Shown piece by piece: positions 3,791 through 37,170 of a stretch of DNA of 37,170 nt. The position numbers and the translations under genes are program-made. How positions within the stretch are numbered: position 1 is the stretch's first letter; each line of letters begins with the position of its first letter. The notes beneath the pieces are model-generated. The model did no database searches, had not been told where the DNA came from, and worked only from the letters and a program-made list of their open reading frames with translations. Source of the stretch: Plectonema cf. radiosum LEGE 06105. Lineage in GTDB: Bacteria > Cyanobacteriota > Cyanobacteriia > Cyanobacteriales > Nostocaceae. The DNA lies in the NCBI RefSeq assembly GCF_015207665.1, contig NZ_JADEWL010000064.1, positions 1-37,170 on the forward strand, in the 5' to 3' direction.

Positions 3791-3814
3791 AATTAATTAA
3801 ACTCTTGTGAACAT

Positions 3815-7987: not shown

Positions 7988-8092
7988 ATATATGTTTGTT
8001 TAAGTAGTAGCAACCTGAAAAATAATTGACTAGAAAATATCATCAAATCATTTCACCAAGTTAATTTTTTAAGGTTTGTTAGCTCCGCGTGT

Positions 8093-8244: not shown

Positions 8245-8266
8245 TATTACGAATTACGAATTATAT

Positions 8267-12169: not shown

Positions 12170-12185
12170 TACACCCCCTTACGCT

Positions 12186-12533: not shown

Positions 12534-12599
12534 GGGGACTCTCTAGCACCTAATTAATGAAGTTGAGATTTAATAACACGGTAAGCAATTTACCAAGTT

Positions 12600-12690
12600 A
12601 AATAAACTACAATTCATGGTGTTTTGAATGCACTTTTTAGTATAGAGAGTCACTCAAATGTGTTGTGAGGATTACAGAAATCTGTATGGG
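12600..12690 (-). promoter_or_regulatory. Three-copy upstream element, copy 2
   Basis: On the minus strand TACAG-ATTT-CTGTA (12686-12673) precedes TGTAGTTTATTT (12611-12600) by exactly 61 bp, with CACCATGAAT before the latter. The match to copy 3 continues about 30 bp further downstream (TTGGTAAATTGCTTACCGTG versus TTGATAAATTCTTTACTGTA). The small ORF starts 66 bp downstream and tpsA1 430 bp downstream. Confidence 0.65.
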
Positions 12691-12727
12691 ATATGTGAAA
12701 ATAATGATGCGGATTCTCCGTTACCTC

Positions 12728-13006
12728 TCACCTGCTACACTCGCGACTAAGTATACGTCTTCCATTTTCCAAACGATAAACCCCCGATGGTTCCACAATG
12801 GGGTCTCCAATTTTCCAGCGACGACGAGGTTTTGCAGATGTATTATTTGGTACAGATTGCACCCCAACGGTAGAATAGACAGAAGGTACTGCATCACCGG
12901 GACGATAGGGGAAACCTTGAGCGCCAGTAATAAAGAAAGTACCGTTTCTTTCGTTACTTCTGACTACGCAGCTACTCGCGATTAAAGCTTCGCTATCAAT
13001 TGGGTT
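12728..13006 (-). repeat. Shared 3' tail of TpsA genes, copy 2
   Basis: This is the 3' end of tpsA2 and a near-perfect direct repeat of 8267-8546. The identity stops shortly after the stop codon on one side and at the NPIDSEAL segment on the other. Confidence 0.85.
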
Positions 13007-20920: not shown

Positions 20921-21832
20921 ATGAAAAAGATACTAGTAATTGAAAATCAAGTAACACTGCGAAACTTCTTTTTAAAATTTCTCAATGATAGGGGTTTTGA
21001 TGCTATTGGTGCAGAAAATGGATCTATGGGTGTTAAGTTAGCAAAAGAACATTCACCTTTATTGGTTATTTGTAATGTTAAGGCATTAGAGCTAAATTAT
21101 CATAGTATTATCACAGATTTTCGTCAAAATGCTGCGACAAAAATTACTCCATTTATTTTTATAGCTACAGAAACAATTGATCGTCAGCTTCTTACTGAAA
21201 ATAAATTACTATCCAATAGCTATGATACGTATTTAACTCAGCCTTACCAAGAAGAAGAACTATTGTTAACAATTAACGTTCAACTTCAAAAACGAATAAT
21301 TATTCAACAATGGTGTGTTTCCCGCGAATTTTGCCAACAAAACCAAACTAGTGAAGCAATAAATACCTTTAAATCGGAGTCGTCGTTACTCCGCCGTGCA
21401 ACGGCGGAACCTGCGACGACCGGCGTTCCCCAGTCCATATTTCCTATTTCTAATTGTTCCTTACTAAACAAAGTGTTCCAATTTATTGAAGAAAATTATC
21501 ACCAGCAAATAAATCTTGGTGATGTAGCTGAAGCTGTTGGTTATACAGCTACTTATCTTACTAACTTAGTGAAACGTCAAACTCAAAAGGGTATATACGG
21601 CTGGATTATTGAGCGTCGTATGGCTGAGGCTCGCTGTTTACTAATCAAAACTGACCAATCTGTAAGTTGGATTGCGGCAAAAGTCGGCTATCCAGACTCC
21701 GGTCATTTTAGCCGCTTGTTTCGCCAAAACTATTCTATATCTCCCAAAGCTTGGAGAGATACTTATAGCGAAAATATATTAGTAGAGGAAACATTTCACG
21801 GAACATCAAGGATGTTACTCACTAAAAGTTAA
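20921..21832 (+). CDS. AraC-family regulator with degenerate receiver domain
   Basis: The 303-aa protein has an N-terminal CheY-like fold (residues 1-125) and a C-terminal AraC/XylS DNA-binding domain with two helix-turn-helix units (about 185-290; INLGDVAEAVGYTATYLTNL and VSWIAAKVGYPDSGHFSRLF). The receiver lacks key phosphorylation residues: the phospho-acceptor Asp is Asn52 (VICNVKA), the acidic pair is Glu8-Asn9, and the conserved Lys is Gln107 (LTQPYQ). It therefore probably works without phosphorylation, through ligand, dimer or partner binding. The linker (about 150-172) is encoded by a GC-rich palindromic insertion. It lies upstream of the PEP-CTERM-like gene and the biosynthetic cluster, all on the same strand, so it may control them; its own promoter carries the three-copy element. 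Confidence 0.88.
   Translation: MKKILVIENQVTLRNFFLKFLNDRGFDAIGAENGSMGVKLAKEHSPLLVICNVKALELNYHSIITDFRQNAATKITPFIFIATETIDRQLLTENKLLSNSYDTYLTQPYQEEELLLTINVQLQKRIIIQQWCVSREFCQQNQTSEAINTFKSESSLLRRATAEPATTGVPQSIFPISNCSLLNKVFQFIEENYHQQINLGDVAEAVGYTATYLTNLVKRQTQKGIYGWIIERRMAEARCLLIKTDQSVSWIAAKVGYPDSGHFSRLFRQNYSISPKAWRDTYSENILVEETFHGTSRMLLTKS
21379..21420. repeat. Palindromic GC-rich element inside the regulator CDS
   Basis: GTCGTCG (21379-21385) pairs with CGACGAC (21414-21420), and inside it TCCGCCG pairs with CGGCGGA around a TGCAA loop. The element sits in an AT-rich gene, keeps the frame and encodes the inter-domain linker LLRRATAEPATTGVPQS. It looks like a mobile palindromic repeat that landed in a tolerant linker. 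Confidence 0.7.
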
Positions 21833-21929: not shown

Positions 21930-22931
21930 ATGCGTACATACCAGATATCCGCTTTCCTCTTTACAACCCCTTTATTATCTTTTGTAATAGCTCCAGCATC
22001 TGTAAAGGCTGCCACTTTTAATTTTGATCAACTGAGATTTATTGAACCCAGACCGATCGAATCTAATGTTTTTTTGGATTTTCAGGGTTTACCTTCACAA
22101 AATGAAGGATTTGTTGCTTTCTATAACCAAGATGCTGATGCTCTAGATAGAGGTCATAGATTAGTTCCGTTGAATTCTCGTGCCGATATTCCAGGTGTTC
22201 CCGATAATGCTCCTTACTATGGTACTGGAAGACAAGGTAGCCCGGAAGTACCCTCAACTAACGCGACTAGAACAGCTAGTTTAGTTAATAATTCCGGTTT
22301 TTCAAACTTTAATAGTTATTTAACAAATAATGGTATTGAATTTAGTGATATTGGTTTTGCATTCGGGCAAAAAGAAGGTCAGGATTTTACAAAAACCTGG
22401 AACTTAGGTGCAGACGTTATTGGTGAAAATTGGTTTGCCGAACCAGATTCACCTATTGAAGAAAGAATTTATAGCGCTAATCCTAATGATGTTGAATTAG
22501 GTTTATATAATGGTACGACTAAAATAATTGACTTCGGATATTCTGATTATTATGCAGTTGTTGATTATGGTCCAACAACTTCATTTCAAGATGATATTGA
22601 GAGTAATTTTACAGACCCAATTACGGTAAATAAAGTACCCAATTTATCTTCATTCAATCAAGGTTTGGCTGATGCTTTTGTTAAAGATGTCTCTGCTGCT
22701 GGAAATAGAGTCCAGATAGTTAACTCTTTTGACGGAGATGATTTATTCCAAAGAAGCGGAAATGGATTTGATATGTTTATTCTTCCATTTCCATTAGAAT
22801 TACGAGTGGTTAGAGCCGTGCCGGAAAAATCTTTGACATGGACGCTATTAATGTTTGGAGTTTTGGCTGCGATATCTAGACGTAAAAAAGCAAGTAATCA
22901 AGTTGAATGTAAAAGGTTCTTGAGCAAATAG
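21930..22931 (+). CDS. Exported protein with PEP-CTERM-like C-terminus
   Basis: The 333-aa protein has an N-terminal signal peptide (FLFTTPLLSFVIAPASVKAA, cleavage near residue 28). Its C-terminus has the layout of a PEP-CTERM sorting signal: VPEKSLTWTLLMFGVLAAIS followed by the basic run RRKK. The core motif is VPEK instead of VPEP, and about 12 residues follow the basic run, which is unusual. If functional, it would be processed by an exosortase and anchored or released at the surface. The body (Asp/Asn/Ser-rich) is not recognised. It lies 97 bp after the regulator gene, without a clear Shine-Dalgarno, and is followed by a terminator-like hairpin, so it could be the regulator's co-transcribed partner. 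Confidence 0.7.
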   Translation: MRTYQISAFLFTTPLLSFVIAPASVKAATFNFDQLRFIEPRPIESNVFLDFQGLPSQNEGFVAFYNQDADALDRGHRLVPLNSRADIPGVPDNAPYYGTGRQGSPEVPSTNATRTASLVNNSGFSNFNSYLTNNGIEFSDIGFAFGQKEGQDFTKTWNLGADVIGENWFAEPDSPIEERIYSANPNDVELGLYNGTTKIIDFGYSDYYAVVDYGPTTSFQDDIESNFTDPITVNKVPNLSSFNQGLADAFVKDVSAAGNRVQIVNSFDGDDLFQRSGNGFDMFILPFPLELRVVRAVPEKSLTWTLLMFGVLAAISRRKKASNQVECKRFLSK

Positions 22932-23355: not shown

Positions 23356-23715
23356 ATGTTTGAATTAAATGCAAAATCTGGCGCACCCGCAATTAGCAAA
23401 GGTGCTAATTTACTTGGTTTAACTCTCTCTTATTCTGAGTTAAACGAGCTGCAATCTGGCAATCATATTTCTCTTGAAAATAGAAGTTTAAGTGAAATTG
23501 GTTCATTATTTATTATGGTGTCAGCACTTGCTGATATTAATGCGGGTAAAACAAAGACTAATGTAACTTTTGGTGATTTACCGAAAGCAACTACTGATTC
23601 TCAATGCTGTTCGGGTATTCCTATTTATTGTTGGGAGTCTAATTCTCAGAAAATATGTCTTTTTCTGACTATGGTAGATGGTAAGCCTGCAATTCGCAGT
23701 TGCTGTCATTCATAA
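23356..23715 (+). CDS. Small Cys-rich protein of unknown function
   Basis: The 119-aa product is not recognised. It has a good AAAGGA Shine-Dalgarno and an ATG. The N-terminal ~80 residues are soluble and low in Cys; all six Cys lie in the last 37 residues (DSQCCSG, YCWES, QKICLF, RSCCHS), with vicinal Cys pairs at both ends of that segment. No signal peptide, double-glycine cleavage site or Nif11/nitrile-hydratase leader is visible, so a RiPP precursor is only a possibility; a metal-binding or disulfide-bonded small protein is equally possible. It is the first gene of the plus-strand cluster, 201 bp before DAHP synthase, and may be co-transcribed with it. Confidence 0.6.
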   Translation: MFELNAKSGAPAISKGANLLGLTLSYSELNELQSGNHISLENRSLSEIGSLFIMVSALADINAGKTKTNVTFGDLPKATTDSQCCSGIPIYCWESNSQKICLFLTMVDGKPAIRSCCHS

Positions 23716-23916: not shown

Positions 23917-25017
23917 ATGATTGTAATAATGAAATCTGCAACTCCAGCAATGGAAGTTGAACGAATTACTCAAGAAATTCGCCTTTTGAATATCCATCCA
24001 GAAAAGTCTGTTGGTATTCATCACACTTTAATCGGTTTAGTAGGTGATACTACATCTATTAACGTTCAACAAATTGAAAAACTTAGCCCTTTTATTGAAA
24101 GAGTAATGCGTGTAGAAAAACCTTTTAAACGTGCTAGCTTACAATGGACTAATGGACAACCCAGTACGGTTTATGTAACTACACCAAATGAAATCGTTGC
24201 TTTCGGTCAACATTCTCCCATAGTTGTGGTTGCAGGTCCTTGTTCGGTTGAAAATGAAGAAATGATTGTGGAGACAGCACAATCAGTCAAGGCTGCTGGT
24301 GCCAAGTTTTTGCGTGGTGGTGCTTATAAACCACGTACTTCTCCTTATTCATTTCAAGGACATGGTGAGAGCGGTTTGGAATTACTTGCAAAAGCCAAAG
24401 CTGTCACTGGTTTGGGAATTGTCACTGAAGTGATGGATACGGCAGATTTAGATAAAATCGCAGATGTAGCCGATATTATCCAAATCGGAGCCAGAAATAT
24501 GCAGAATTTTTCACTGTTGAAACAAGTCGGAGCCATTAATAAACCTGTGTTGCTCAAGCGAGGGATGGCTGCAACTATAGAAGATTGGCTAATGGCTGCC
24601 GAGTATATTCTTGCGGCTGGTAATCCCAATGTAATTCTTTGCGAGCGTGGAATCCGCACTTTTGACTGCAAATATGTGCGAAATACTTTGGATATATCCG
24701 CCATACCTGTTTTGCGTACTCTAACTCACTTACCGATTATGGTTGACCCTAGTCATGCAACGGGTAAATCTGAGTTTGTATCATCAATGACAATGGCAGC
24801 AATCGCTGCTGGTACAGATTCATTAATGATTGAAGTTCATCCCGACCCAGCAAACGCATTATCTGATGGACCCCAATCTTTAACACCGCAACAATATCGA
24901 GAGTTAATGCAAGAAGTAGCTCCTATTGCTGAGATATTTGGTCGTTGGTCGAATAAACATACTATGACAATGCCATACTGTTCTCTAACAGAAAAAGAAT
25001 TAGTATATAGCGTTTAA
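23917..25017 (+). CDS. aroF: 3-deoxy-D-arabino-heptulosonate 7-phosphate synthase (type I-beta)
   Basis: The 366-aa enzyme condenses phosphoenolpyruvate and erythrose 4-phosphate, the first step of the shikimate pathway. An N-terminal ferredoxin-like regulatory domain (about residues 1-80) precedes the TIM barrel, as in the feedback-regulated I-beta enzymes. Active-site motifs are GPCSVE, KPRTSPYSFQG, GARNMQNF, LLKRG, CERGIRTF and DPSHATG. The ATG at 23917 was chosen over an upstream TTG because GGAG lies 11 bp before it. It sits 46 bp before the PAL gene, so it is probably a dedicated copy that raises phenylalanine supply for the cluster; a housekeeping copy should exist elsewhere. Retention of the regulatory domain suggests it may still be feedback-controlled. 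Confidence 0.92.
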   Translation: MIVIMKSATPAMEVERITQEIRLLNIHPEKSVGIHHTLIGLVGDTTSINVQQIEKLSPFIERVMRVEKPFKRASLQWTNGQPSTVYVTTPNEIVAFGQHSPIVVVAGPCSVENEEMIVETAQSVKAAGAKFLRGGAYKPRTSPYSFQGHGESGLELLAKAKAVTGLGIVTEVMDTADLDKIADVADIIQIGARNMQNFSLLKQVGAINKPVLLKRGMAATIEDWLMAAEYILAAGNPNVILCERGIRTFDCKYVRNTLDISAIPVLRTLTHLPIMVDPSHATGKSEFVSSMTMAAIAAGTDSLMIEVHPDPANALSDGPQSLTPQQYRELMQEVAPIAEIFGRWSNKHTMTMPYCSLTEKELVYSV

Positions 25018-25063
25018 GTTTTGATCGAAAAAATCTACAATCCACATCTATTTCACAAATATC

Positions 25064-26752
25064 ATGAAATTAACATCTCTACAAAAAAGCAATACTGCTT
25101 CCGCTCAATTAGCTTACAGTGAATATTCGGATTCAACTGTGAATGTAGGTAACGATTCTCTCACCATAGATGACCTTGCGAGTGTCGCTCGCGATCAAAA
25201 ACAAGTACGGTTAACAGAGAATGCAGACATTTTACAGGGTATTCAAGCATCATGTGATTTCATTAGCAATGCAGTTGAATCTGGAAAGCCAATTTATGGT
25301 GTGACATCAGGATTTGGTGGCATGGCTGATGTGGTGATTTCTCCGGAAGAAGCATCGGAATTACAAACAAATCTGGTTTGGTTCCTCAAGTCGGGTGCTG
25401 GAAAGAAATTGCCTATTTCAGATGTCCGTGCAGCAATGCTGTTACGAGCTAACTCACATTTACATGGTGCATCTGGTATCCGTCTCGAACTAATTCGACG
25501 CATGGAAATTTTCCTCAACGCTGGGGTTACTCCTCATGTATACGAATTTGGTTCGATTGGTGCAAGTGGCGATTTAGTGCCGTTATCTTACATTACTGGT
25601 GCCTTGATTGGTTTGGATTCTAGCTTTAAAGTTGATTTCAACGGTAAAGAAATGGATGCTCCCACTGCTCTATCTAAACTTGGTTTGTCTCCTTTGCAGC
25701 TATTACCCAAAGAGGGTTTAGCAATGATGAACGGTACTTCTGTAATGACTGGTATTGCTGCTAATTGTGTTTACGATGCGCGAATATTGCTCAAGCTGGC
25801 AATGGGTGTTAATGCTCTATTTATTCAGGGTTTAAACGGTACAAATCAATCATTTCATCCGTTTATCCACGAGTGCAAACCCCACCCTGGACAATTATGG
25901 GCAGCAGAACAAATGATTTCTTTGCTTGCTGGTTCTCGTTTAATTCGCGACGAGTTAGATGGTAAACATGAATATCGCAAGCAAGAATTGATTCAAGATC
26001 GTTATTCGTTGCGTTGTTTGCCACAATATATGGGTCCAATTGTTGATGGAATCTCTCAAGTTGGCTCGCAGATTGAAATTGAGATGAATTCTGTTACAGA
26101 TAATCCTCTAATAGATGTGGCAAATAATGCAAGCTATCATGGGGGCAATTTCCTGGGACAGTATGTAGGTATGGGAATGGATCACCTACGCTATTATTTA
26201 GGACTTTTGGCTAAACACATAGACGTACAAATTGCCCTGCTTGTCTCTCCGGAATTTAACAATGGATTGCCTCCTTCTTTGGTGGGGAATCAACAGCGTA
26301 AGGTAAATATGGGGTTGAAAGGTCTGCAAATATGCGGTAATTCAATTATGCCTTTGTTAACCTTTTACGGAAATTCCCTTGCAGATAGATATCCCACTCA
26401 CGCAGAACAGTTTAACCAGAACGTCAATTCTCAAGGTTATATGAGTGCAAATTTAGCTCGTCGTTCTGTTGAAATATTTCAACAATATATGGCGATCGCC
26501 TTAATGTTTGGGGTGCAAGCGGTTGATTTACGCTCTTATAAAATAAGTGGTGATTATGATGCTCGGACTTGTCTTTCTCCTGGGACTCAAGAGTTGTATT
26601 CGGCAGTGTATCAGGTAATTGAGCAAAAACCAAGTTCTACTCGTCCCTACATTTGTAATGATAACGAACAGTCTTTAGATGAGCATATTGCTCGGATTGC
26701 AGCGGATATAGCTGCTGGGGGCTTAATTGTGGATGCAGTTAAAGGTTGTTAA
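25064..26752 (+). CDS. pal: Phenylalanine ammonia-lyase
   Basis: The 562-aa enzyme converts L-phenylalanine to trans-cinnamate and ammonia. The MIO cofactor triad Ala167-Ser168-Gly169 is present in GSIGASGDLVPL, with catalytic Tyr78 (PIYGVTSGFGG). The selectivity pair is Phe107-Leu108 (NLVWFLKSGAG), the Phe-type signature; tyrosine lyases carry His there. As recalled, the chain aligns without gaps through this region with the Anabaena variabilis PAL, and differs mainly in a shorter C-terminus. Histidine ammonia-lyase is unlikely given the Phe-Leu pair and length. It lies between DAHP synthase and the acyl-activating ligase, which fits production of a cinnamate starter. A strong hairpin follows the stop codon. 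Confidence 0.93.
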   Translation: MKLTSLQKSNTASAQLAYSEYSDSTVNVGNDSLTIDDLASVARDQKQVRLTENADILQGIQASCDFISNAVESGKPIYGVTSGFGGMADVVISPEEASELQTNLVWFLKSGAGKKLPISDVRAAMLLRANSHLHGASGIRLELIRRMEIFLNAGVTPHVYEFGSIGASGDLVPLSYITGALIGLDSSFKVDFNGKEMDAPTALSKLGLSPLQLLPKEGLAMMNGTSVMTGIAANCVYDARILLKLAMGVNALFIQGLNGTNQSFHPFIHECKPHPGQLWAAEQMISLLAGSRLIRDELDGKHEYRKQELIQDRYSLRCLPQYMGPIVDGISQVGSQIEIEMNSVTDNPLIDVANNASYHGGNFLGQYVGMGMDHLRYYLGLLAKHIDVQIALLVSPEFNNGLPPSLVGNQQRKVNMGLKGLQICGNSIMPLLTFYGNSLADRYPTHAEQFNQNVNSQGYMSANLARRSVEIFQQYMAIALMFGVQAVDLRSYKISGDYDARTCLSPGTQELYSAVYQVIEQKPSSTRPYICNDNEQSLDEHIARIAADIAAGGLIVDAVKGC

Positions 26753-26783
26753 TTGTTTGATGTCGAATAATATTACTGCGCCC

Positions 26784-26812
26784 AGAGGAGGTGTTAAAAT
26801 TTTACCTCCTCT
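26784..26812 (+). promoter_or_regulatory. Hairpin between PAL and ligase genes
   Basis: AGAGGAGGT (26784-26792) and ACCTCCTCT (26804-26812) form a perfect 9-bp stem around an AT-rich loop, 32 bp after the PAL stop. No T-run follows, so it is not a standard intrinsic terminator. The left arm contains a perfect Shine-Dalgarno core and the right arm the complementary anti-Shine-Dalgarno sequence. It may act in mRNA processing or in setting the ratio of PAL to ligase. Two direct copies of AATTAAAGGT follow. Confidence 0.5.
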
Positions 26813-26859
26813 AGCAAGTAATTAAAGGTAATTAAAGGTAGTTTTAGAATAATCAGGTC

Positions 26860-28797
26860 ATGAACATAGCACAAAATGTAGAGCGTGGTTGCTGTCTATT
26901 TCCGAATAAACCAGCAGTGATTTTTGAAGGTAAGTATTTGACTTACAAACATCTCAACCAAATGGTAAATCGGGCTGCTAATGCTTTGAGCGAACTGGGG
27001 ATGAAGCGAGGTGAACGAATTGGATTGTTTTTACCTAATATTCCTGAATTTATCATTTCTTACCTGGCGATCCAAAAAATTGGTGCGATCGCGGTTTCAA
27101 TAAATATTAGTCTCCAAGAAGATGAAGTTAAGTTTATTCTGGATGATTGTCAAGCCACAGTATTGATTACGACTCCACAGCTTTATGAAAAAATTTCTCA
27201 AGCGGATTTACCATACTTACAACATCTTTTGATTACTGAAGGTAAATCGACTGCCGGTATTTCTTTAGATGAATTAATGTCGAAGGTTTCAGATGAAGCT
27301 CGTGCTGTGATCATGGAACGAGATGAACCAGCAGCAATTCTTTATACTTCTGGGACTACGGGTTTTCCGAAAGGGGCGACTCTTTCCCACGGTAATGTGA
27401 TTTCTAATATGTATTCGATGAATCACAATTGTGGAATGAGTAGTAAAGATAATATTTTGTTATTTTTGCCGATGTTTCACTGTTTTGGGCAGAATGCTAT
27501 CTTCAACAGTGCTTTAAATGCCTGTGCGACGATTGTACTGCATCGCTCTTTTGAACCAGACACGATTATTAATTCGGTGGCTGAGTATGATATTACAATG
27601 TTTTTCGGAGTACCAACAACTTTTATTCTGTTACTAGAGAAAGCATCTAAAACGGATTTAACCGCAAATTATTACTTTTCTGCTGCTGCTGGTTTACCTG
27701 TAGAAATTGCCAAACAATGGCAAGAAAAGTTTGGTCAAGTGATTCATCAAGGATATGGTTTAACTGAGACATCACCCCTAGCTAGTTACAATCATCGGCT
27801 CAAATATAAGCTTGGTTCGATTGGTACACCAATTGAAAACGTGGAGATGAAGATTGTTGATACTGAAAATGGTAGGGAAGTCACACCGGGTAAGTTGGGG
27901 GAAATCTTGATTCGGGGTGTCAATGTCATGTTGGGTTACTGGAATCGTCCATCGGAAACGGCTCAAGCCATTAAAGATGGATGGTTTCATACTGGTGATA
28001 TCGGTCAAATGGATGAGTTGGGTTACTTCTACATTGTTGACCGTTTGAAAGATATGATTAATTGTGGCGGTTTGAAGGTGTACCCTGCTGAGGTAGAAAA
28101 TGTAATTTATCAACATCCATCTATCGCAGAAGTGGCAGTGTACGGTGTTCCTAATACCTTAATGGGGGAACAGGTTCGGGCTTGTATTGTACTTAAGGCT
28201 AATCAAATAGTTACAGAAGAGGAAATAATTGCTTTATGTCAGCAGCGACTGGCACAGTATAAGGTTCCGAGTAAAGTCCTATTCGTTACATCTATACCAA
28301 AAAATCCCACAGGAAAAATACTGAAGCGATTGTTACGGGAAGAAAATTCTTGTCCTGGGGAAGTGGTAAAAGTTGTGGAAACTCAGTTGATTACGACTAA
28401 AGCAAGTAACATTCAACAGCAAACTCTTAAATTGCAACCAGGTTTCGAGCAAGTTGCCAATTGGATAACTGATTGGATGGTGAAAAAGTTGCTCCTAAGT
28501 GACGGTAAAATTGATCGCAATAAATCTTTTGCCGATTATGGTTTGGATTCTCTAAGAGCGGTAAAGTTAGCTGAAGATTTGAGTAACTGGTTGCAACGGG
28601 AGATTTTACCAACCATAACTTGGAATTTTTCCACGGTTGATTCTTTAGCACATCATTTAGGCAGTGTAGATATTTCCCAAGAGAATCAGCTTGATACGAA
28701 GGCGCTTTTGAATCCACAATCCACCGATTTTGAAGCATTGAATGATAGAGAGTTAGCTGAGTTACTTGCTCAAGAAATTGCAGCGTTAAACATTTAA
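26860..28797 (+). CDS. Acyl-activating (AMP-forming) ligase fused to acyl carrier domain
   Basis: The 645-aa protein is an ANL-superfamily ligase (residues 1-500) with YTSGTTGFPKG (about 162-172), GYGLTETSP, WFHTGDIG and catalytic-type Lys486 in NPTGKILKR. A carrier domain follows (about 530-605) with DYGLDSLRAV and phosphopantetheine Ser564. The last ~20 residues (LNDRELAELLAQEIAALNI) resemble the helical docking tails of modular synthases. The likely role is to adenylate cinnamate from PAL and load it on its own carrier as the PKS starter; another aryl or acyl acid is possible. The sequence resembles CoA ligases and I did not see a clear FAAL insertion. It starts 107 bp after PAL and ends 19 bp before a MITE-like insertion that separates it from the PKS gene. 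Confidence 0.87.
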   Translation: MNIAQNVERGCCLFPNKPAVIFEGKYLTYKHLNQMVNRAANALSELGMKRGERIGLFLPNIPEFIISYLAIQKIGAIAVSINISLQEDEVKFILDDCQATVLITTPQLYEKISQADLPYLQHLLITEGKSTAGISLDELMSKVSDEARAVIMERDEPAAILYTSGTTGFPKGATLSHGNVISNMYSMNHNCGMSSKDNILLFLPMFHCFGQNAIFNSALNACATIVLHRSFEPDTIINSVAEYDITMFFGVPTTFILLLEKASKTDLTANYYFSAAAGLPVEIAKQWQEKFGQVIHQGYGLTETSPLASYNHRLKYKLGSIGTPIENVEMKIVDTENGREVTPGKLGEILIRGVNVMLGYWNRPSETAQAIKDGWFHTGDIGQMDELGYFYIVDRLKDMINCGGLKVYPAEVENVIYQHPSIAEVAVYGVPNTLMGEQVRACIVLKANQIVTEEEIIALCQQRLAQYKVPSKVLFVTSIPKNPTGKILKRLLREENSCPGEVVKVVETQLITTKASNIQQQTLKLQPGFEQVANWITDWMVKKLLLSDGKIDRNKSFADYGLDSLRAVKLAEDLSNWLQREILPTITWNFSTVDSLAHHLGSVDISQENQLDTKALLNPQSTDFEALNDRELAELLAQEIAALNI

Positions 28798-28815
28798 ATT
28801 TAGTGACATGAACTA

Positions 28816-29007
28816 CTATAGGAATCCTACTTGAAAATTGAAAAAACTCAGTACACCTTAATCTTCTAGAAAGAATCATGAAAGCATGAATGCAAGAAAG
28901 CAAGAAAGCAAGAAAGCCTCCCTACACAAATAATTATGGCTACGCCACGCTGCGCGTTCGTGTAGCGTGCCCGAAGGGCATACAAAAATCAAACCGGATT
29001 CCTATAG
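28816..29007. mobile_element. MITE-like element with 12-bp perfect terminal inverted repeats
   Basis: CTATAGGAATCC (28816-28827) and GGATTCCTATAG (28996-29007) are perfect inverted ends, and the similarity continues inward (TTGA/TCAA). TA dinucleotides flank both ends (28814-28815, 29008-29009), as expected for a TA target duplication of the Tc1/IS630 type. The 192-bp inside encodes no transposase and holds hairpins (CTACGCCACG..., GCCCGAAGGGC). It is best read as a non-autonomous element. Confidence 0.7.
28892..28915 (+). repeat. (GCAAGAAA)3 tandem octamer
   Basis: Three perfect consecutive GCAAGAAA units lie inside the MITE-like element, preceded by related GCATGAA units. Such A/G-rich short tandem arrays vary easily between strains. 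Confidence 0.85.
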
Positions 29008-29036
29008 TACTCCACCACATTAATTTTAAAGGGTAA
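29008..29036 (+). repeat. Dispersed CCACATTAATTTT...GGGTAAC repeat, copy 2
   Basis: It matches the block at 71-100, and its extension GGGTAACTCCCGGTTCGTAG followed by TAGCGC (29031-29056) recurs at 29247-29272. It begins exactly at the right flank of the MITE-like element. Confidence 0.65.
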
Positions 29037-29105
29037 CTCCCGGTTCGTAGTAGCGCAGAGGGCGCTTCATCCACCAGGAATCCCGAAGAGTTAAAATACC
29101 TCTTC

Positions 29106-29222
29106 GTAGGTTGGGTTAAGCGTTGGCGAAGCCTGTCCGACAGGACATAGCGCAACCCAACGCGGGTGCCGAGGCTCCACTACGTTTTGCTTCGCAACGC
29201 TTGCGCGAACAGCCCAACCTAC
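29106..29222. mobile_element. Palindromic element with GTAGGTTGGG ends
   Basis: GTAGGTTGGG (29106-29115) and CCCAACCTAC (29213-29222) are perfect 10-bp inverted ends of a 117-bp GC-rich element with internal hairpins (TGTCC-GACA-GGACA; GCGTTG/CAACGC). No ORF is inside. It resembles the short palindromic repeats widespread in cyanobacterial intergenic DNA and lies between two copies of another repeat. Confidence 0.65.
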
Positions 29223-29227
29223 AATAT

Positions 29228-29254
29228 TACTTGACCACATTTTAAGGGGTAACT
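29228..29254 (+). repeat. Dispersed CCACATTAATTTT...GGGTAAC repeat, copy 3
   Basis: This shorter copy (CCACATTTTAAGGGGTAAC) is followed by the same CTCCCGGTTCGTAGTAGCGC extension as copy 2. The last bases lie about 60 bp before the PKS start codon, so the repeat may form part of the PKS leader. Confidence 0.6.
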
Positions 29255-29314
29255 CCCGGTTCGTAGTAGCGCTTGGGCGCAATATTCACCATCAACCATC
29301 AACTATCAAATAAC

Positions 29315-32300
29315 ATGAATTACCCAGAAAATCAAAATTATCGTCCGTTGTTAGAAAAAGCATTGTTGCAATTAAGAAATATGCGTTCTGTTGTCGATAA
29401 TATGCAGCAGGTGCAGAGGGAACCAATAGCAATTATTGGTATGGGATGTCGCTTTCCTGGTGGTGCTGATAATCCAGAGGCTTACTGGCATTTGTTGCAT
29501 GATGGAATCGATGCCATTAAAGAAATTCCATCTCAACGTTGGGATGTAGATAAATATTATCATTCAGACTCCGAAGTTCCGGGAAAAATGTACACTAAGT
29601 ACGGTGGATTTTTAGATCAAGTAGATCAATTTGATGCACATTTCTTTGGTATCTCTCCTAGGGAAGCAGTAAATTTAGACCCCCAACAACGATTACTTTT
29701 AGAAGTAAGCTGGGAAGCTTTGGAACATTCGGGAATTCCCGCAGATAAATTAAAAGGTAGTTCCACCGGAGTCTTTATTGGACTTTGTATGGATGATTAT
29801 TCTCAGTTGGGTTTTAACAGTGGCGATCGCACTCAAATTGATGCTTACAATACTTTGAGTATTCTCAGAAGTATGGCTGCGGGACGTTTGGCTTATACTT
29901 TAGGTTTGCAAGGTTCGACGATGCAGTTAGATACTGCTTGTTCGTCTTCGCTGTTAGCGGTGCATTTGGCTTGTCAAAGTTTGCGTACTGGGGAATGTAA
30001 GATGGCTTTGGCTGGTGGAGTGAATTTAATTCTTTCTCCGTCAGCAAGTATTGGTTTGTCTAAGTTAAAGGCTTTGTCTAAGGATGGGCGCTGTAAAACT
30101 TTTGATGCTGCGGCTGATGGTTACAGTCGGGGTGAAGGTTGTGGAATAGTTATACTCAAACGATTGTCAGATGCAATTTCTCACGGGGATAATATACTGG
30201 CTGTAATTCGCGGCTCGGCTGTCAATCATGATGGTGCAAGTAATGGTTTAACTGCTCCCAACGGTGCAGCACAAGAAGCATTATTACGTAAAGCTTTAGA
30301 AAATGCTCGGCTCGAACCTCATCAAATTCAGTATGTGGAAGCACATGGTACAGGAACTAGTTTAGGAGATCCAATTGAAGTTTTAGCACTAGGAAATATA
30401 TTGGGTGAAAATCGTAGTCAAGATAATCCTTTAACCATCGGTTCAGTAAAAACTCAGTTAGGACATTTAGAATCTGCTGCTGGAATAGCGGGTTTAATCA
30501 AAGTAATATTAAGTTTGCAGCAGGCTGAAATTCCCGCTCACCTACATTTTAATCAGCCCAATCCTTACATCCCTTGGGGCAAACTTCCCGTGAGAGTACC
30601 TACTTCCCTCACAACATGGGATGCTCCCCAACGTTTGGCTGGAATCAGTTCCTTTGGTATGAGTGGTACTAACGTACATTTGATTTTAGAATCTGCACCG
30701 CAAGTTGAACCCAAAACCCAACCGGATATCGAACGTCCGCTACATTTATTGAGTTTATCAGCCAAAACTGAAGCAGCACTAATTAATTTAGTTGAAGATT
30801 ACCACAGCTTTTTATCATCTCGTCCCCAAACAGCTTTGACAGATATTTGTTTTACAGCTAATACAGGGCGATCGCATTTTGAGCATCGACTGGCTTTTAT
30901 TGCGGAATCGACTACAGATTTACAGCAACAAATTAGCAAGTTTATTAATAATCCATCTGCGGGAATTACTGATAAAAGTGAGCATCAACAAAATCAAAAA
31001 ATCGCCTTTTTGTTTACGGGACAAGGTTCCCAGTATGCGGGAATGGCAAGAGAACTTTACGAAACTCAACCGATGTTTCGTCAAATTATTAACCGCTGCG
31101 ATGAAATTTTACGTCCATATTTAGAACAGCCTTTGCTGTCGGTGCTTTACGGTAGTAACACCAACTTGATAAACGATACAGCTTACGCTCAACCGGCTTT
31201 ATTTGCTATTGAGTACGCTGTCTTCCAATTATGGAAGTCTTGGGGTATTGAACCAGATATGGTTTTGGGACATAGTTTAGGTGAATATGTTGCGGCTTGT
31301 GTGGCGGGAGTCTTTAGTTTAGAAGACGGTTTAAAATTGATTGCGAAACGAGCTAGGTTAATGCAAGCTATGCCGGGCAACGGTACAATGGTAAGCGTTT
31401 TTGCCACAGAAGCAGTCGTTTCCACAGCGATTCAAGCTTTTAGCGATCGAGTTTCCATCGCAGCGATAAATGGACCGGAAAGTGTGGTAATTTCGGGAGA
31501 AAATCAAGCGATAGATATTGTTGTTGAAAAGTTAGAAGCTAAAGATATTAATACCGTCAAATTAAATGTTTCTCACGCTTTCCATTCGGCTTTGATGGAA
31601 CCAATGTTAGGGGATTTTGAGCAGGTATTATCAGAAGTTTGCTTTGCAACCCCCAAGATAGATTTAGTTTCCAATGTTACTGGTGAGTTAGTCACCACAG
31701 AGCTACAAAATCCTCAATATTGGTTAGATCATTTGCGGGGAACAGTAAGATTTGCACCTGCAATGAAAACTCTTGCACAACAGGGTTGCCAAGTATTTTT
31801 GGAAGTAGGGGCCAAATCTATTTTATTAGGAATGGGACGTAAATGTGTAGATACAAATGTGGGAATGTGGCTTTCTAGTTTGCATTCTTCTCAGTCGGAT
31901 TGGCAACAGATGCTGTCAACTTTAGCACAATTGTATATCCATGGAAAAACCGTAAACTGGTTTGCTTTTGACTCTGATTATTCTCGTCAGCGATTGGTAT
32001 TACCAACTTATCCATTTCAACGTCAGCGTTATTGGGTTGATACATCTCAGATAAATATTCCTCAATCACCAACTTTAACCCCAAGTAATAATCAAGCGCT
32101 GCATCCGGTATTAGGTAAAAGGCTGAGATTGCCATTTTCTCCAGAAACTCGTTTTGAAGTAGAATTCAGTGCCAATTCACCGGCTTATTTAAATGATCAC
32201 AAACTGTATGGAAAAGCAATAGTTCCGGCAGCATCTTACGTTTCGATGATTTTATCGGCTGTTAAGGAGACTTTTTCGGATGAATCTTGTGTGATTGAGA

Positions 32301-34903
32301 ATTTATTACTTTCACATCCTTTGATTTGTGATCATGATAGTACCCAGACGGTTCAGTTAGTGTTGACACCGCAATCAAATCAAGGCACAGGATTACAAAT
32401 TATTAGTCTACAAAATCCAACTTCGGAAAACCATATTGAAGCTTGGGAATCTCACGCAAAGGCAATAGTTAATCTGGTGACAACAGAAATAAATTTTGTC
32501 AATAACTCGATAAATATTGAAACATTAAAACAGCAATGCGATCAAATATCGGGAACAGAATTTTACTCCACATTCCGAGATAGGGGCTATCACTGGGAAA
32601 ATTCATTTCAATGGATTGACACAATTTGGCTGGGAGAAAATCAAGCTTTATGTCAAATGAAACAGCCTCAATTACCAGATAAAATTGATAATTATCAACT
32701 TTATCCCGGTTTAATTGATTCTTGTTTACAACTACTTAACAGTTGGGAACTAACTAAATCCGAGCAAGATTATATGTACGTTCCCTTTAACATTGCCAAA
32801 TTAAAATTTTACCATCGTCCTAATTGCGATCGTAAACTATGGTGTCACGCTCAAAAACAAGAATCAGACGATAATAGTTTACTTGGTAATATCAGTTTGT
32901 ACGACGAATCCGGACGTTTAATTGCGGAAATTATCGGTTTTGAAGCCAGAAGAACTCGTCAAAAAACCGTTTTCCAAAACATCACTAAAGCAGAACACGA
33001 TTGGTTGTATGAAATTGCTTGGGAAAACAAGGATGTTGATAAGAATCAAGAATTAATTCCACAAGAAAAGGGTAGTTGGCTGATATTCGCTCAAGATACA
33101 GGAATAGGCGCTCAACTTGCAAGAAAATTACAGCAAAATGGCGAAGATTATGTTTTAGTTGTTCCCGGTACGGAATATAAAGCTTTTCCGCAACAGTTTT
33201 ACATCAACCCCGAAAATCCCCAAGACTTTCAACGATTGCTGGAGGAGATCACAAATAATCAAACTGCTTTACGGGGAATAGTATACTTATGGGGATTAGA
33301 TGACACTTTTAAGACAAATAACCAAGTTCGTAATTGCGGTAGCGTTTTACATTTAGTCCAAGCTTTGACTAAAGCTGAATTATCTCCATATCCCCGATTG
33401 TGGTTGGTAACGAAAGCAACTCAAGCAACAACAGCATCCGATGATTTACAATTAACCGGAGCTTCATTGTGGGGATTGGGTAAAGTAATTGCTTTAGAAC
33501 ATCCAGAACTATTATGTACCCGCTTGGATTTAGATGCAGCAAACCATAATCAAGTTCAAGAATTGTACGAGCAATTATTATTTGCAGACACAGAAAATGA
33601 AATTGCTCTACGTCAAGGAATTCGTAAAGTTGCTCGCTTAGTAAGACGCAATTATCAAACTAACGCACAACAACAGTTTAAGTTTAATTCAGAAAGCAGC
33701 TATTTAATTACCGGCGGATTAGGAGCTTTGGGACTTGTAGTTGCTCGTTGGATGATTGATAAAGGGGCTAGAAATTTAGTTTTAACTACCAGAAGGGGAA
33801 TTACCAACGACACTCAACAAGAAATTTTACAACTAGAACAAGCCGGAGCGAAAGTACTGGTTGTCAAAGCAGATGTTTCCCAAGTAGAAGATGTATCTGG
33901 AATATTAACCAAAATCAAGACATCCCATCCACCTTTAAGAGGTATTATTCACGCTGCGGGTGTCTTAGATGATGGGTTACTGTTACAGCAAACTTGGCAA
34001 CGATTCGAGAGAGTTATGGCTGCGAAAGTCAGGGGAACTTGGAATTTACATCATCTAACTCAAGATATACCTCTAGACTTCTTTGTTTGTTTCTCCTCAG
34101 TAGCTTCCTTATTGGGTTCCCCAACTCAAGGAAACTATGCTGCTGCGAATGCTTTTATGGATACCTTAGTTAATTATCGCCGAAATCAAGGTAAGCCAGG
34201 TTTGAGCATTAACTGGGGTGCTTGGGGTGAAGTCGGGATGGCTGCTAAATTAGACATTCGTCACCAACAACGAATAACAGCAAGTGGTTTTTCCACAATT
34301 GCACCACAACAAGCATTACAAATATTAGGAGATTTATTAACGCAAAACGCAACACAAGTAGGAGTTACACCCGTTAATTGGACGAAGTTTTTACAACAAT
34401 TTTCCCCAGGAAAACAACCACCTTTAGTTAATAACTTCCTTAGTCAAACCCAAGCAAAAGTAAAACAAGAATCATCAACCCAGCATTTAGAACTTCTCCA
34501 TCAACTCCAAGAAACCATCGTTAGCGAGCGAGAAAATTTATTGATTGCTCGTATTCAAGATGAAGTTGTCAAAGTTCTGCAATTTGATTCCTCATTTCGT
34601 CCAAATCCCCGTACCGGATTCTTCGACATGGGAATGGATTCTTTAATGTCGATGGAATTAAAAAATCAGTTAGAGAAAATGTTGGGAAACTCCTTACCTT
34701 CTACCTTGACATTTGAATATTCCACCATTGAAGCTTTAGCACAGTATTTACTAGATAAAGTTATTTCCTTGGAAGTTGTAGAAATCGAAGAAACCTTAGA
34801 GGTGAAACCAGTACAAGATTTTGTTGATGACATCTTACAACTTTCCGAAGCAGAATTGTCAAACTTGATCGATCAAGAATTGGCAGAATTATTAAGAGTT
34901 TAG
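29315..34903 (+). CDS. Type I modular polyketide synthase, KS-AT-DH-KR-ACP
   Basis: The 1862-aa protein is one complete module. An N-terminal coiled-coil-like docking segment (residues 1-33) leads to a ketosynthase (about 35-465; Cys209 in DTACSSS, His344, His384). The acyltransferase has Ser654 in GHSLGEY and His754-AFH, the malonyl-CoA signature. The dehydratase has His962 (HKLYGKAIVP) and Asp1135 (YPGLIDSCLQ). The ketoreductase has GGLGALG (1467 on), an LDD motif (B-type) and Tyr1608. The ACP has Ser1776 (GMDSLMSM). No enoylreductase, methyltransferase or thioesterase is seen. The C-terminus (LSEAELSNLIDQELAELLRV) is docking-like. It should extend the starter by one malonyl unit and leave an alpha,beta-unsaturated thioester. 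The ATG at 29315 was preferred over an upstream TTG that starts inside repeat DNA. Confidence 0.92.
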   Translation: MNYPENQNYRPLLEKALLQLRNMRSVVDNMQQVQREPIAIIGMGCRFPGGADNPEAYWHLLHDGIDAIKEIPSQRWDVDKYYHSDSEVPGKMYTKYGGFLDQVDQFDAHFFGISPREAVNLDPQQRLLLEVSWEALEHSGIPADKLKGSSTGVFIGLCMDDYSQLGFNSGDRTQIDAYNTLSILRSMAAGRLAYTLGLQGSTMQLDTACSSSLLAVHLACQSLRTGECKMALAGGVNLILSPSASIGLSKLKALSKDGRCKTFDAAADGYSRGEGCGIVILKRLSDAISHGDNILAVIRGSAVNHDGASNGLTAPNGAAQEALLRKALENARLEPHQIQYVEAHGTGTSLGDPIEVLALGNILGENRSQDNPLTIGSVKTQLGHLESAAGIAGLIKVILSLQQAEIPAHLHFNQPNPYIPWGKLPVRVPTSLTTWDAPQRLAGISSFGMSGTNVHLILESAPQVEPKTQPDIERPLHLLSLSAKTEAALINLVEDYHSFLSSRPQTALTDICFTANTGRSHFEHRLAFIAESTTDLQQQISKFINNPSAGITDKSEHQQNQKIAFLFTGQGSQYAGMARELYETQPMFRQIINRCDEILRPYLEQPLLSVLYGSNTNLINDTAYAQPALFAIEYAVFQLWKSWGIEPDMVLGHSLGEYVAACVAGVFSLEDGLKLIAKRARLMQAMPGNGTMVSVFATEAVVSTAIQAFSDRVSIAAINGPESVVISGENQAIDIVVEKLEAKDINTVKLNVSHAFHSALMEPMLGDFEQVLSEVCFATPKIDLVSNVTGELVTTELQNPQYWLDHLRGTVRFAPAMKTLAQQGCQVFLEVGAKSILLGMGRKCVDTNVGMWLSSLHSSQSDWQQMLSTLAQLYIHGKTVNWFAFDSDYSRQRLVLPTYPFQRQRYWVDTSQINIPQSPTLTPSNNQALHPVLGKRLRLPFSPETRFEVEFSANSPAYLNDHKLYGKAIVPAASYVSMILSAVKETFSDESCVIENLLLSHPLICDHDSTQTVQLVLTPQSNQGTGLQIISLQNPTSENHIEAWESHAKAIVNLVTTEINFVNNSINIETLKQQCDQISGTEFYSTFRDRGYHWENSFQWIDTIWLGENQALCQMKQPQLPDKIDNYQLYPGLIDSCLQLLNSWELTKSEQDYMYVPFNIAKLKFYHRPNCDRKLWCHAQKQESDDNSLLGNISLYDESGRLIAEIIGFEARRTRQKTVFQNITKAEHDWLYEIAWENKDVDKNQELIPQEKGSWLIFAQDTGIGAQLARKLQQNGEDYVLVVPGTEYKAFPQQFYINPENPQDFQRLLEEITNNQTALRGIVYLWGLDDTFKTNNQVRNCGSVLHLVQALTKAELSPYPRLWLVTKATQATTASDDLQLTGASLWGLGKVIALEHPELLCTRLDLDAANHNQVQELYEQLLFADTENEIALRQGIRKVARLVRRNYQTNAQQQFKFNSESSYLITGGLGALGLVVARWMIDKGARNLVLTTRRGITNDTQQEILQLEQAGAKVLVVKADVSQVEDVSGILTKIKTSHPPLRGIIHAAGVLDDGLLLQQTWQRFERVMAAKVRGTWNLHHLTQDIPLDFFVCFSSVASLLGSPTQGNYAAANAFMDTLVNYRRNQGKPGLSINWGAWGEVGMAAKLDIRHQQRITASGFSTIAPQQALQILGDLLTQNATQVGVTPVNWTKFLQQFSPGKQPPLVNNFLSQTQAKVKQESSTQHLELLHQLQETIVSERENLLIARIQDEVVKVLQFDSSFRPNPRTGFFDMGMDSLMSMELKNQLEKMLGNSLPSTLTFEYSTIEALAQYLLDKVISLEVVEIEETLEVKPVQDFVDDILQLSEAELSNLIDQELAELLRV

Positions 34904-35028: not shown

Positions 35029-36115
35029 ATGAACGAAATTAATTATAACAGCTTATGGAAATTTTCTCTAAAAATATTACTAGGATTTTTGAGTGTCAGC
35101 GTCACATCAATAGAATCGGGTTTTGCTCAAAGCAATATTGTACCGGATAACACTTTAGGTACTGAACCTTCACAAATTAATAATAATAATAATGTAAATA
35201 GAAATGGTATACCCAGCACCTTGATAGAAGGTGGAGCAGAGCGGGGTCAAAATTTATTTCATAGTTTGCAAGAATTAAATGTCGGTGAAGGAAGAGGTGC
35301 TTATTTTGTTGTTCCTAATGATAATATTCAAAATGTTTTAACAAGAGTCACGGGAAATAATCCTTCAGAAATATTAGGCATTTTGGGTACGATATCCAAT
35401 AGAAATTTTGACCCTAGTAATGCAAATTTATTTTTAATTAATCCCAACGGGATTGTTTTTGGAGAAAATGCCAGTTTGGATATAAATGGTTCCTTTGTAG
35501 GGACTACTGCAAATGCAATTGAGTTTGCAGAGCAAGGGTTTTTTAGTACGATAAATCCTCAACCACCAGCTTTATTGACGGTGAATCCTTCGGCTTTTTT
35601 GTTTAGTCAAATTAATCAAACAGCATCGATTCAAAATAATTCAATTGCAGACTCTGGAATAGATCCAGCAGGTTTTAACGTATTTGGTTTGCGGGTTCCC
35701 GATGGTAAGAGTTTGCTGCTGGTGGGTGGCAATGTCAACATGAATGGTGGAGAATTAAACGCTTATGGTGGGAGGGTTGAGTTAGGAGGATTGGCAGAAA
35801 CTGGAACTGTAGCACTAGATATAAATGGGAATAATTTCAGGTTGGAATTTCCCGATAATGTTACTCGTGCTGATGTATCGCTGACAAATCAAGCCAAGGT
35901 ATATGTAGAAGGTGCTGGTGGCGGTGATATCGTAGTTAATGCTGGAAATGTGGAAATTACTGGAGGAAGTTTTCTTTCCGCTGGGATTGGGCAAGGTTTG
36001 GGGACACCTGAAACTGTTGCCGGAGATATTACCCTAGATGCGACTGGAGAAATAACAGTTGCTGATTCTGGGAGCCAAATTCGCAATCGGGTGCGCCGGG
36101 ATTCAAGAGGTAATG
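35029..36115 (+). repeat. Right arm of a large inverted repeat (tpsA3 5' part)
   Basis: It is the counterpart of 15710-16789 on the opposite strand. Together they flank about 18 kb that carries the CHAT gene, the regulator and the complete biosynthetic cluster. Confidence 0.85.
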
Positions 36116-37170
36116 CAGGAAATATTACCGTTAATACAGGTTCCTTGAATTTAGCAGAAGGTGCTAGTCTTTCTGCCTCAACATTGGGAGAAGGAAAAGC
36201 GGGGAGTGTGACGGTAACAGCCAATGATACTGTTTCCCTTACAGATGCTAATATCTTTAGCAGGGTGGAAGCAGGTGGTGTGGGTAATGGGGGAAATATT
36301 GAGATTAATGCTGCTAACCTGACACTACGAGATAGCGCTCAAATAACAACTAGTATTCGTCGTGCATCTGATACCCAAAGTGCAGGAAGAGGCAATGCGG
36401 GGGATGTGAATGTGAATGTAACGGGTGTTGTTGATATTGCTGATAGAAGAGATACATTTCCCAGTGGGATTAGAAGTACTGTGGGTACAGGAACTATTGG
36501 TAATGGGGGAAATATTACCGTTAATGCCGGTTCCTTCAACTTAACAGAAGGTGCTGAACTTATTGCCTCAACATTCGGAGAAGGAAATGCGGGGAATGTG
36601 ACGGTAACAGCCAATGATACTGTTTCCCTTACAGATGCTAATATCTTCAGCACAGTGGAAGCAGGTGGTGTGGGTAAAGGGGGAAATATTGAGATTAATG
36701 CTGCTAACCTGACACTACGAGATAGCGCTCAATTACAAACTAGTACTCGTGGTGCATCTGATACCCAAAGTGCAGGAAGAGGCAATGCGGGAGATGTGAA
36801 TGTGAATGTAACGGGTGTTGTTGATATTGCTGGGGAAAAAAATGGATTCCCTAGTGCGATTTTCAGTGATGTGGAAACAGGAACTATTGGTAAAGGGGGA
36901 AATATTACCGTTAATGCCGGTTCCTTGAATTTAGCAGAAGGTGCTGAACTTACTGCCGCAACATTCGGAGAAGGAAATGCTGGGAGTGTGACGGTGAAAG
37001 CCAAAGATACTGTTTCCCTTACAGATGCTAATATTTTCAGCAGGGTGCAAGCAGGTGGTGTGGGTGATGGGGGAAATATTACCGTTGATGCCGGTTCCTT
37101 TAACTTAACAGAAGGTGCTAGTCTTACTGCCTCAACATTCGGAGAAGGAAATGCTGGGAGTGTGACGGTG
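35029..37170 (+). CDS. TpsA3: filamentous-haemagglutinin-type exoprotein, 3' end outside window
   Basis: The reading frame is open for all 714 codons from the ATG at 35029 to the window edge, so the gene is partial here. It begins with AGAGGTTGAA before the ATG, a signal peptide (ILLGFLSVSVTSIESGFAQS), and the TPS secretion domain with LFLINPNGIVFGENASLD. The first ~350 residues are nearly identical to TpsA2. From about 36121 the body is made of 130-residue tandem units. No TpsB gene is next to it in the window, so export may depend on the TpsB at 6242-7987 or on one beyond the edge. It lies 125 bp after the PKS stop, past a terminator. Confidence 0.88.
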   Translation, partial: MNEINYNSLWKFSLKILLGFLSVSVTSIESGFAQSNIVPDNTLGTEPSQINNNNNVNRNGIPSTLIEGGAERGQNLFHSLQELNVGEGRGAYFVVPNDNIQNVLTRVTGNNPSEILGILGTISNRNFDPSNANLFLINPNGIVFGENASLDINGSFVGTTANAIEFAEQGFFSTINPQPPALLTVNPSAFLFSQINQTASIQNNSIADSGIDPAGFNVFGLRVPDGKSLLLVGGNVNMNGGELNAYGGRVELGGLAETGTVALDINGNNFRLEFPDNVTRADVSLTNQAKVYVEGAGGGDIVVNAGNVEITGGSFLSAGIGQGLGTPETVAGDITLDATGEITVADSGSQIRNRVRRDSRGNAGNITVNTGSLNLAEGASLSASTLGEGKAGSVTVTANDTVSLTDANIFSRVEAGGVGNGGNIEINAANLTLRDSAQITTSIRRASDTQSAGRGNAGDVNVNVTGVVDIADRRDTFPSGIRSTVGTGTIGNGGNITVNAGSFNLTEGAELIASTFGEGNAGNVTVTANDTVSLTDANIFSTVEAGGVGKGGNIEINAANLTLRDSAQLQTSTRGASDTQSAGRGNAGDVNVNVTGVVDIAGEKNGFPSAIFSDVETGTIGKGGNITVNAGSLNLAEGAELTAATFGEGNAGSVTVKAKDTVSLTDANIFSRVQAGGVGDGGNITVDAGSFNLTEGASLTASTFGEGNAGSVTV
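36121..37170 (+). repeat. 390-bp in-frame tandem repeats in tpsA3
   Basis: The landmark AATATTACCG recurs at 36121, 36511 and 36901, an exact 390-bp (130-codon) period. Units are highly similar (ITVNAGSLNLAEGA, TVTANDTVSLTDANIFS, RRASDTQSAGRGNAGDV). A sub-unit shift of 174 bp places the next landmark at 37075. TpsA2 contains only one full version of this unit (around 14.7-15.1 kb), so copy number differs between paralogues. Confidence 0.85.

Follow-up and report, generated by a model that had tools for sequence, protein, structure and literature searches.

A phenylalanine ammonia-lyase, a ligase-carrier protein and a polyketide synthase in a cyanobacterial family: probable loading end of a PKS-NRPS line

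Introduction

The locus raises the question of whether four neighbouring genes of Plectonema cf. radiosum LEGE 06105, encoding a DAHP synthase, a phenylalanine ammonia-lyase (PAL), an AMP-forming ligase fused to a carrier domain and a polyketide synthase (PKS1), constitute a pathway of their own or the beginning of a longer one. A first-pass annotation of the window (the whole stretch of DNA that was analysed, 37170 bases) had described them as a self-contained, cinnamate-primed pathway. The evidence collated here makes a longer PKS-NRPS line probable, with this locus as its loading end and a cinnamate-derived chain that would be joined to serine. The question also touches AvPAL of Anabaena variabilis, the enzyme behind pegvaliase, a drug for phenylketonuria (PKU). 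An association of cyanobacterial PALs with secondary-metabolite clusters was reportedly described by Moffitt et al. in 2007, so this general association would already be in print.

Gene content of the window

The four genes lie head to tail on one strand, and their open reading frames, together with a Pfam scan, confirmed the place, strand and domain content first read from the letters. The features are collated in Table 1.

Table 1. Features at and near the four genes (window positions), and loci of relatives in which PAL, ligase-ACP, PKS1, PKS2 and NRPS are contiguous.
Feature	Position	Strand	Evidence and remarks
Response-regulator/AraC-type regulator	20921..21832	+	Pfam HTH_18, Response_reg weak; 95% copy in L032
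333-aa secreted-looking protein	21930..22931	+	PEP-CTERM-like by eye: signal-peptide-like start, VPE...hydrophobic...RRKK end
119-aa small conserved protein	23356..23715	+	Relatives 49-54% in L125-L129, 51% in L036 and L120
DAHP synthase	23917..25017	+	Pfam PF00793 DAHP_synth_1, E 8e-89; NCBIfam PRK13396 over cut-off; open frame from 23887, ATG at 23917 in agreement with the first pass
PAL	25064..26752	+	Pfam PF00221 Lyase_aromatic, E 4e-150; PDB matches 2nyn, 3czo, 5ltm, 2nyf
AMP-forming ligase fused to carrier domain	26860..28797	+	Pfam AMP-binding PF00501, E 1e-95; AMP-binding_C PF13193; PP-binding PF00550
PKS1, KS-AT(malonyl)-DH-KR(B-type)-ACP	29315..34903	+	Pfam, motifs; open frame from 29273, first ATG 29315
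Exoprotein gene (two-partner secretion)	35029..37170	+	Pfam TPS; 3' of PKS1, runs off contig within its repeats
Terminal 89 bases	37082..37170	+	100% identical to first 89 bases of contig C64 (blastn)
Contiguous order in relatives			G118 (L112/L113), G117 (L114/L115), G211 (L117/L126), G129 (L118/L125), G119 (L119/L127)
Contiguous order, further relatives			G011 (L033/L128), G120 (L094/L129), G131 (L034/L130), G111 (L035/L149)

The window PAL was aligned to the AvPAL sequence taken from genome G211, with which it shares 449 of 560 residues. The selectivity pair F107-L108 and the MIO triad A167-S168-G169 match AvPAL position by position, in agreement at each residue with the Phe-type assignment (Phe107-Leu108, MIO triad) of the first pass. 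Homology thus supports the deamination of phenylalanine to trans-cinnamate as the predicted reaction of this enzyme.

In PKS1, the Pfam order is ketoacyl-synt, Acyl_transf_1, PKS DH, KR and PP-binding, and the motifs comprise the Cys/His/His set of the KS, GHSLG with HAFH in the AT, HKLYGKAIVP in the DH, LDD in the KR and GMDSL in the ACP. HAFH marks a malonyl-type AT and LDD a B-type KR; by these rules, the motifs suggest use of malonate and B-type ketoreduction, and so an E double bond. Both the domain order and the motifs agree with the malonyl-type module named in the first pass. The ends of PKS1 look docking-like by eye.

Three matches to the DAHP synthase were found in the genome (G000); the paralogues, at C226 and C9, are 67-69% identical. 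The cluster gene is presumably an extra copy for aromatic precursor supply; it would raise the supply of aromatic amino acids and need not be obligatory.

Judging from its position, the response-regulator/AraC-type protein is a possible cluster regulator. Upstream of it, a TPR-CHAT protein is encoded at 17698-20523, CHAT being a caspase-like peptidase family. At 312-5455, a vanadium-haloperoxidase-like protein adjoins an FHA-FAD-ferredoxin oxidoreductase and a protein with a 4Fe-4S-type domain.

Starter unit and loading

Two features were looked for as marks of a cinnamate-primed modular type I PKS. The first, a loading AMP ligase joined to a carrier, is present in one protein (motifs YTSGTTG and PKNPTGK in the ligase, YGLDSL in the carrier); the second, extension modules with intact KS, AT and ACP behind the loading protein, is represented by PKS1 and by the first module of PKS2 on contig C64. 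Among the closest known systems is that of phenylnannolone A from Nannocystis, which shares with the present locus a ligase-carrier didomain joined to a modular type I PKS; the AMP ligase-carrier didomain Phn2 is reported to accept cinnamate in vitro as the PKS starter (PMC5577590, PMC4901931). The cinnamate of phenylnannolone is proposed to derive from extended phenylacetate and not from an ammonia-lyase (PMC5577590), whereas here the cluster has a PAL of its own and an NRPS seems to form the end of the line.

Of the 43 ligase places in the 217 family genomes, 38 have a full-length PAL within 6 kb. Among the other five, a PAL fragment stands about 100 bases from the ligase in G003 and a short one about 170 bases from it in G118; the remaining three have no PAL on the contig. 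The ligase genes at G118:C1:4642559-4644292 and G003:C1:3451664-3453614, beside PAL fragments only, look as if their PAL had decayed.

A ligase tree of 64 rows, from which 26 ligase rows had been dropped, places the 11 cyanobacterial PKS-type ligases in a single clade (support 100/99). Its neighbour, at a fork that the tree leaves unresolved, is a clade with furanolide-type and Herpetosiphon ligases. The tree label FUR denotes a CybF-like or KAS III-like match in the locus, and the label OTH at L112, a PKS-type locus, reflects a piece that ends within PKS1. Among the furanolide-type enzymes, CybC activates 4-coumarate (PMC12395478), and the maculalactone pathway prefers cinnamoyl-CoA (PMC13288894); kinship to such PAL-linked coumaroyl/cinnamoyl ligases supports the loading of cinnamate.

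The labels assigned to the ligase point in part the other way. The NCBIfam model over cut-off is a broad one for long-chain fatty-acid CoA ligases, and the nearest solved structures carry mixed names: the top match, 8weu, is labelled fatty-acyl-CoA synthase, and the near-equal second match, 8wev, has the sequence of the same protein but the label feruloyl-CoA synthetase. A ligase that loads a fatty or other non-aromatic acid, with the PAL serving another product, would agree with the first two of these labels, and the feruloyl label of 8wev argues against it, as do the pairing with full-length PAL at 38 of 43 places and the PAL remnants near two of the other five; we judge it unlikely. Cinnamate is taken as the probable starter in view of the PAL pairing, the relationship to furanolide ligases and the phenylnannolone didomain taken together. 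The ligase would then adenylate cinnamate and load its own fused carrier.

PKS1 would add one malonate, followed by reduction and dehydration, to give 5-phenyl-2,4-pentadienoyl-ACP. The first-pass proposal of cinnamate loading and of this thioester is likely for the first steps, as judged from homology and motifs; in the line proposed here, 5-phenyl-2,4-pentadienoyl-ACP would be an intermediate.

Continuation of the line on contig C64

The window is the entire contig G000:C42 (37170 bases) of an assembly of 323 contigs, so the cluster ends at this point through assembly. Contig C64 opens in the same repeats as the exoprotein gene of the window, on the same strand and with an ORF to base 962. 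In the near twin G188, one contig breaks off just within the start of this exoprotein gene, and a second contig begins about 0.7 kb ahead of PKS2. The end overlap of 89 bases, the repeats that open C64 and the contig ends of G188 strongly suggest that C42 and C64 are adjacent; the link consists of a repeat-bearing end overlap and synteny. The exoprotein gene most likely sits between PKS1 and PKS2. Part of the gene at 12728-16789 recurs in it as an inverted, 96% alike copy.

The two-partner-secretion genes of the window (6242-16789 and 35029-37170) comprise three TPS exoprotein genes and a single pore gene of the ShlB/FhaC type. Two of the exoprotein genes are 96% alike over about 1 kb in opposite orientation, and one lies after PKS1.

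After base 962, C64 encodes PKS2, an NRPS, a PEP-CTERM-motif protein, a type II thioesterase, an MFS protein and a DUF4386 protein. PKS2 and the NRPS are 81% and 84% identical to their counterparts in G118. The domains of PKS2 are KS-AT-KR-ACP-KS, followed by an AT-like stretch in which no GHS motif was seen by eye, and those of the NRPS are ACP-C-PCP-A-C. Serine is kept in both carrier domains of the NRPS (PCP motif GVDSL), and of the HHxxxDG motif, the second His and the Asp are conserved in the two C domains (EHLISDA, HHMIGDL). The succession expected of a PKS-NRPS hybrid, PKS modules and then an NRPS with A, PCP and C domains, is thus found, and it is contiguous in 9 relatives; in G000, the order of the NRPS domains is unusual and the connection to C64 is that of the 89-base overlap and synteny.

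The A-domain code of the NRPS is DIWHISLIDK. DIWH[IVM]SLIDK was found in 21 of 21 NRPSs read, from the 11 genomes with a fused ligase and 10 further NRPS places; these are 21 of the 28 NRPS places, and the most distant of the proteins is 54% identical to that of G000. The code is close to the serine code DVWHLSLIDK, and this suggests serine as the predicted substrate.

PKS2 would add a malonate and reduce it to the hydroxyl level, and the further KS and the AT-like stretch would hand the chain to the ACP of the NRPS, whose A domain would bring in serine. The last KS lacks a GHS-type AT and the NRPS order is not that of the textbook, so that the steps beyond the first module of PKS2 are guesses. 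Least certain are the final ones, in which the terminal C domain and/or the separate thioesterase would release an N-acyl-serine type product and the MFS protein would export it. We read the terminal C domain as the candidate agent of release and the thioesterase as an editor. The crocacin PKS-NRPS of Chondromyces, among the closest known systems, combines a styryl starter with a terminal condensation-like domain that has a release function. Among the literature matches listed, no described product of the PKS-NRPS cluster was found.

The designation as self-contained has to be given up: PKS2 and the NRPS lie on C64, and all 11 genomes that carry the fused ligase also carry the NRPS (at least 69%). 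A pathway of four genes that stops at 5-phenyl-2,4-pentadienoate or a simple derivative, freed by hydrolysis or by a general thioesterase, would accord with the way the genes stand together and with the secretion gene that follows them in the window, and a Myxococcales contig (L110) has PAL, ligase-ACP and a one-module PKS, then long ORFs on the opposite strand. It is nevertheless very improbable here. Relatives of the PKS2 and NRPS found on C64 directly follow PKS1 in 9 other genomes, the Pfam scan found no release domain in the four proteins (DAHP synthase, PAL, ligase-carrier, PKS1), and the tail of PKS1 is docking-like by eye.

The secretion gene after PKS1 in G000 and G188 makes the co-expression of PKS1 with PKS2 uncertain in these two genomes. 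In a further alternative, this lineage has a decaying or split cluster, in which the secretion gene parts PKS1 from PKS2 and no product is made. To the exoprotein gene in both genomes is added a broken NRPS frame in G188; against such decay, the cluster frames of G000 are open, and the motifs searched for are present in PKS1, in the first module of PKS2, in its second KS and in the NRPS. Decay is on balance rather unlikely, and a line extending over both contigs is retained as the preferred reading. The G188 NRPS is represented by two overlapping ORFs in L132 (8186-9421 and 9415-13062), through either a broken frame or an assembly error.

Distribution in the family and the setting of AvPAL

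The fused ligase (at least 69%) occurs in 11 of the 217 family genomes: G000, G188, G118, G117, G129, G119, G131, G111, G120, G011 and G211. Fused ligase, PAL and this NRPS co-occur in these 11 of 217. The ligase and NRPS genome counts are lower bounds, as 5 and 2 candidates per genome, respectively, were scored with cut-offs of our own (E 1e-200, 1e-300). PAL itself gave a match in 40 of the 217 genomes, with 44 places at full length as defined by our own cut. PAL, ligase-ACP, PKS1, PKS2 and NRPS are contiguous in 9 of the 11, all except G000 and its near twin G188.

The exact order DAHP synthase-PAL-ligase-PKS is limited to G000 and G188, and the four-gene set proposed initially does not hold as a unit across the family. 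The co-occurrence that had been named as a check is borne out for PAL, ligase and PKS1, which are found together in 11 genomes; the DAHP synthase varies in position or is absent nearby. It stands directly ahead of PAL only in G000 and G188 and beyond the NRPS in seven genomes (G129, G211, G119, G011, G120, G131 and G111); no match was found near the G118 cluster, and none in the stretches fetched from G117.

An inherited DAHP synthase as part of the PKS clusters was considered and rejected, since the cluster copies fall apart in a tree of 41 rows (row L043, with a stop in the aligned span, was dropped). The G000/G188 cluster copy stands apart from the copies of the seven other PKS clusters, and 7 of 8 copies from elsewhere in the genomes group together, apart from the cluster copies. 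Two changes are needed, and never one in 200 bootstrap trees, while the strongly supported branches alone do not force the split. Two separate additions of supply genes are therefore probable, in keeping with a role that is useful without being required.

Outside the cyanobacteria, tblastn matches of weak to fair quality place PAL, ligase-ACP and a KS-AT-DH-KR-ACP protein one after the other in L101 (Acidobacteriales) and L110, so that the arrangement has either spread or arisen more than once. L110 (9962-18015), in which the single KS-AT-DH-KR-ACP protein is followed by the opposite-strand ORFs, may represent a genuinely short pathway primed with cinnamate.

Crystallised AvPAL (2nyn) and the PAL of G211 agree at every aligned residue outside the MIO group. 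In G211 the order is thioesterase, MFS protein, PAL, ligase-ACP, PKS1, PKS2, NRPS, 333-aa protein and DAHP synthase. The native setting of AvPAL is thus a cluster of this kind, and in nature AvPAL most likely supplies a polyketide starter. AvPAL (PDB 2nyn, 3czo, 5ltm), with which the window PAL shares its active-site residues, is known as a catalyst and drug source; its source strain is Anabaena variabilis ATCC 29413. No product linked to the cluster of AvPAL was found among the literature matches listed.

Comparison with furanolide clusters

The furanolide clusters cyb, ncl and mac share with the present locus an ammonia-lyase and a related ligase, and a DAHP synthase is present in mac and in L038-type loci. 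The window likewise has the ammonia-lyase and ligase as a pair, the PAL adjoining the ligase. A furanolide cluster of the cyanobacterin, nostoclide or maculalactone type could be suspected from the DAHP synthase-PAL-ligase set that heads L038 and other furanolide-type loci, and from the DAHP synthase macA of the mac cluster (PMC13288894). Neither the TPP acyloin enzyme CybE nor the KAS III-like synthase CybF gave a match in the near-identical contig L032 or in C64, and no TPP-enzyme or CybF-type family was detected by Pfam in the 16 window proteins scanned. Furanolide membership was rejected on the missing CybE and CybF matches and is extremely improbable. In the furanolide loci seen, CybE and CybF are present and the ligase has no carrier fusion, whereas here a carrier-fused ligase feeds modular PKSs.

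In two genomes, G076 and G011, the NRPS cluster adjoins a furanolide set that has its own PAL. The serine-type NRPS cluster stands there beside a PAL-ligase-CybE-CybF set (L134/L036, G011:C15; L120/L135, G076:C1). The PALs of these L036 and L120 loci join the PKS-type PAL clade, in a tree made by a quick method with one PAL row dropped, and their ligases join the furanolide-type clade.

A shared back end and its secreted-looking partner

Genomes such as G004, G105, G160 and G214 have the NRPS without a PAL match; in the stretches fetched, it is accompanied by other PKS modules or another ligase-like protein. The NRPS without PAL in some genomes and with furanolide neighbours in others suggests that one back end is shared and that the front ends vary.

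The 333-aa protein gave no Pfam or NCBIfam family match. It occurs, at 43 places, in 29 of 217 genomes: in 26 of 26 with the NRPS and in 3 of 191 without it (Fisher p of about 1e-30, not corrected for relatedness). At 23 of 28 places it shares a contig with the NRPS and is no more than 20 kb from it; at the other 5, including those of G000 and G188, the two are on different contigs. A search of solved structures gave a single match (E 0.3), taken as chance. Structure prediction was poor, with a mean pLDDT of 27.5 for this protein and 53.6 for the 119-aa protein, with only 2 and 3 input sequences, respectively. The 119-aa protein, also without a Pfam or NCBIfam match, is conserved in the PKS-NRPS clusters as well as at L036 and L120, two loci that carry furanolide genes.

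We put forward tentatively, as a reading less likely than not, a back end (serine-type A domain, terminal C domain and dedicated PEP-CTERM-like surface partner; 26 of 217 genomes) that would combine with exchangeable starter front ends, the cinnamate/PAL one being the native setting of AvPAL. At the cell envelope, the role of the surface protein may be to bind or display the acyl-serine product, or to give protection against it.

Conclusion

On this reading, the best-known bacterial PAL would gain a concrete and testable biosynthetic setting, the supply of the starter for a PKS-NRPS line present in 11 of 217 genomes of the family, and this line keeps its genes and its adenylation code across the 11 genomes. 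An unstudied secreted-looking protein travels with the NRPS back end. The PAL-ligase pair plugs into quite different pathways, modular PKS-NRPS lines and furanolide clusters, which makes it useful for genome mining.
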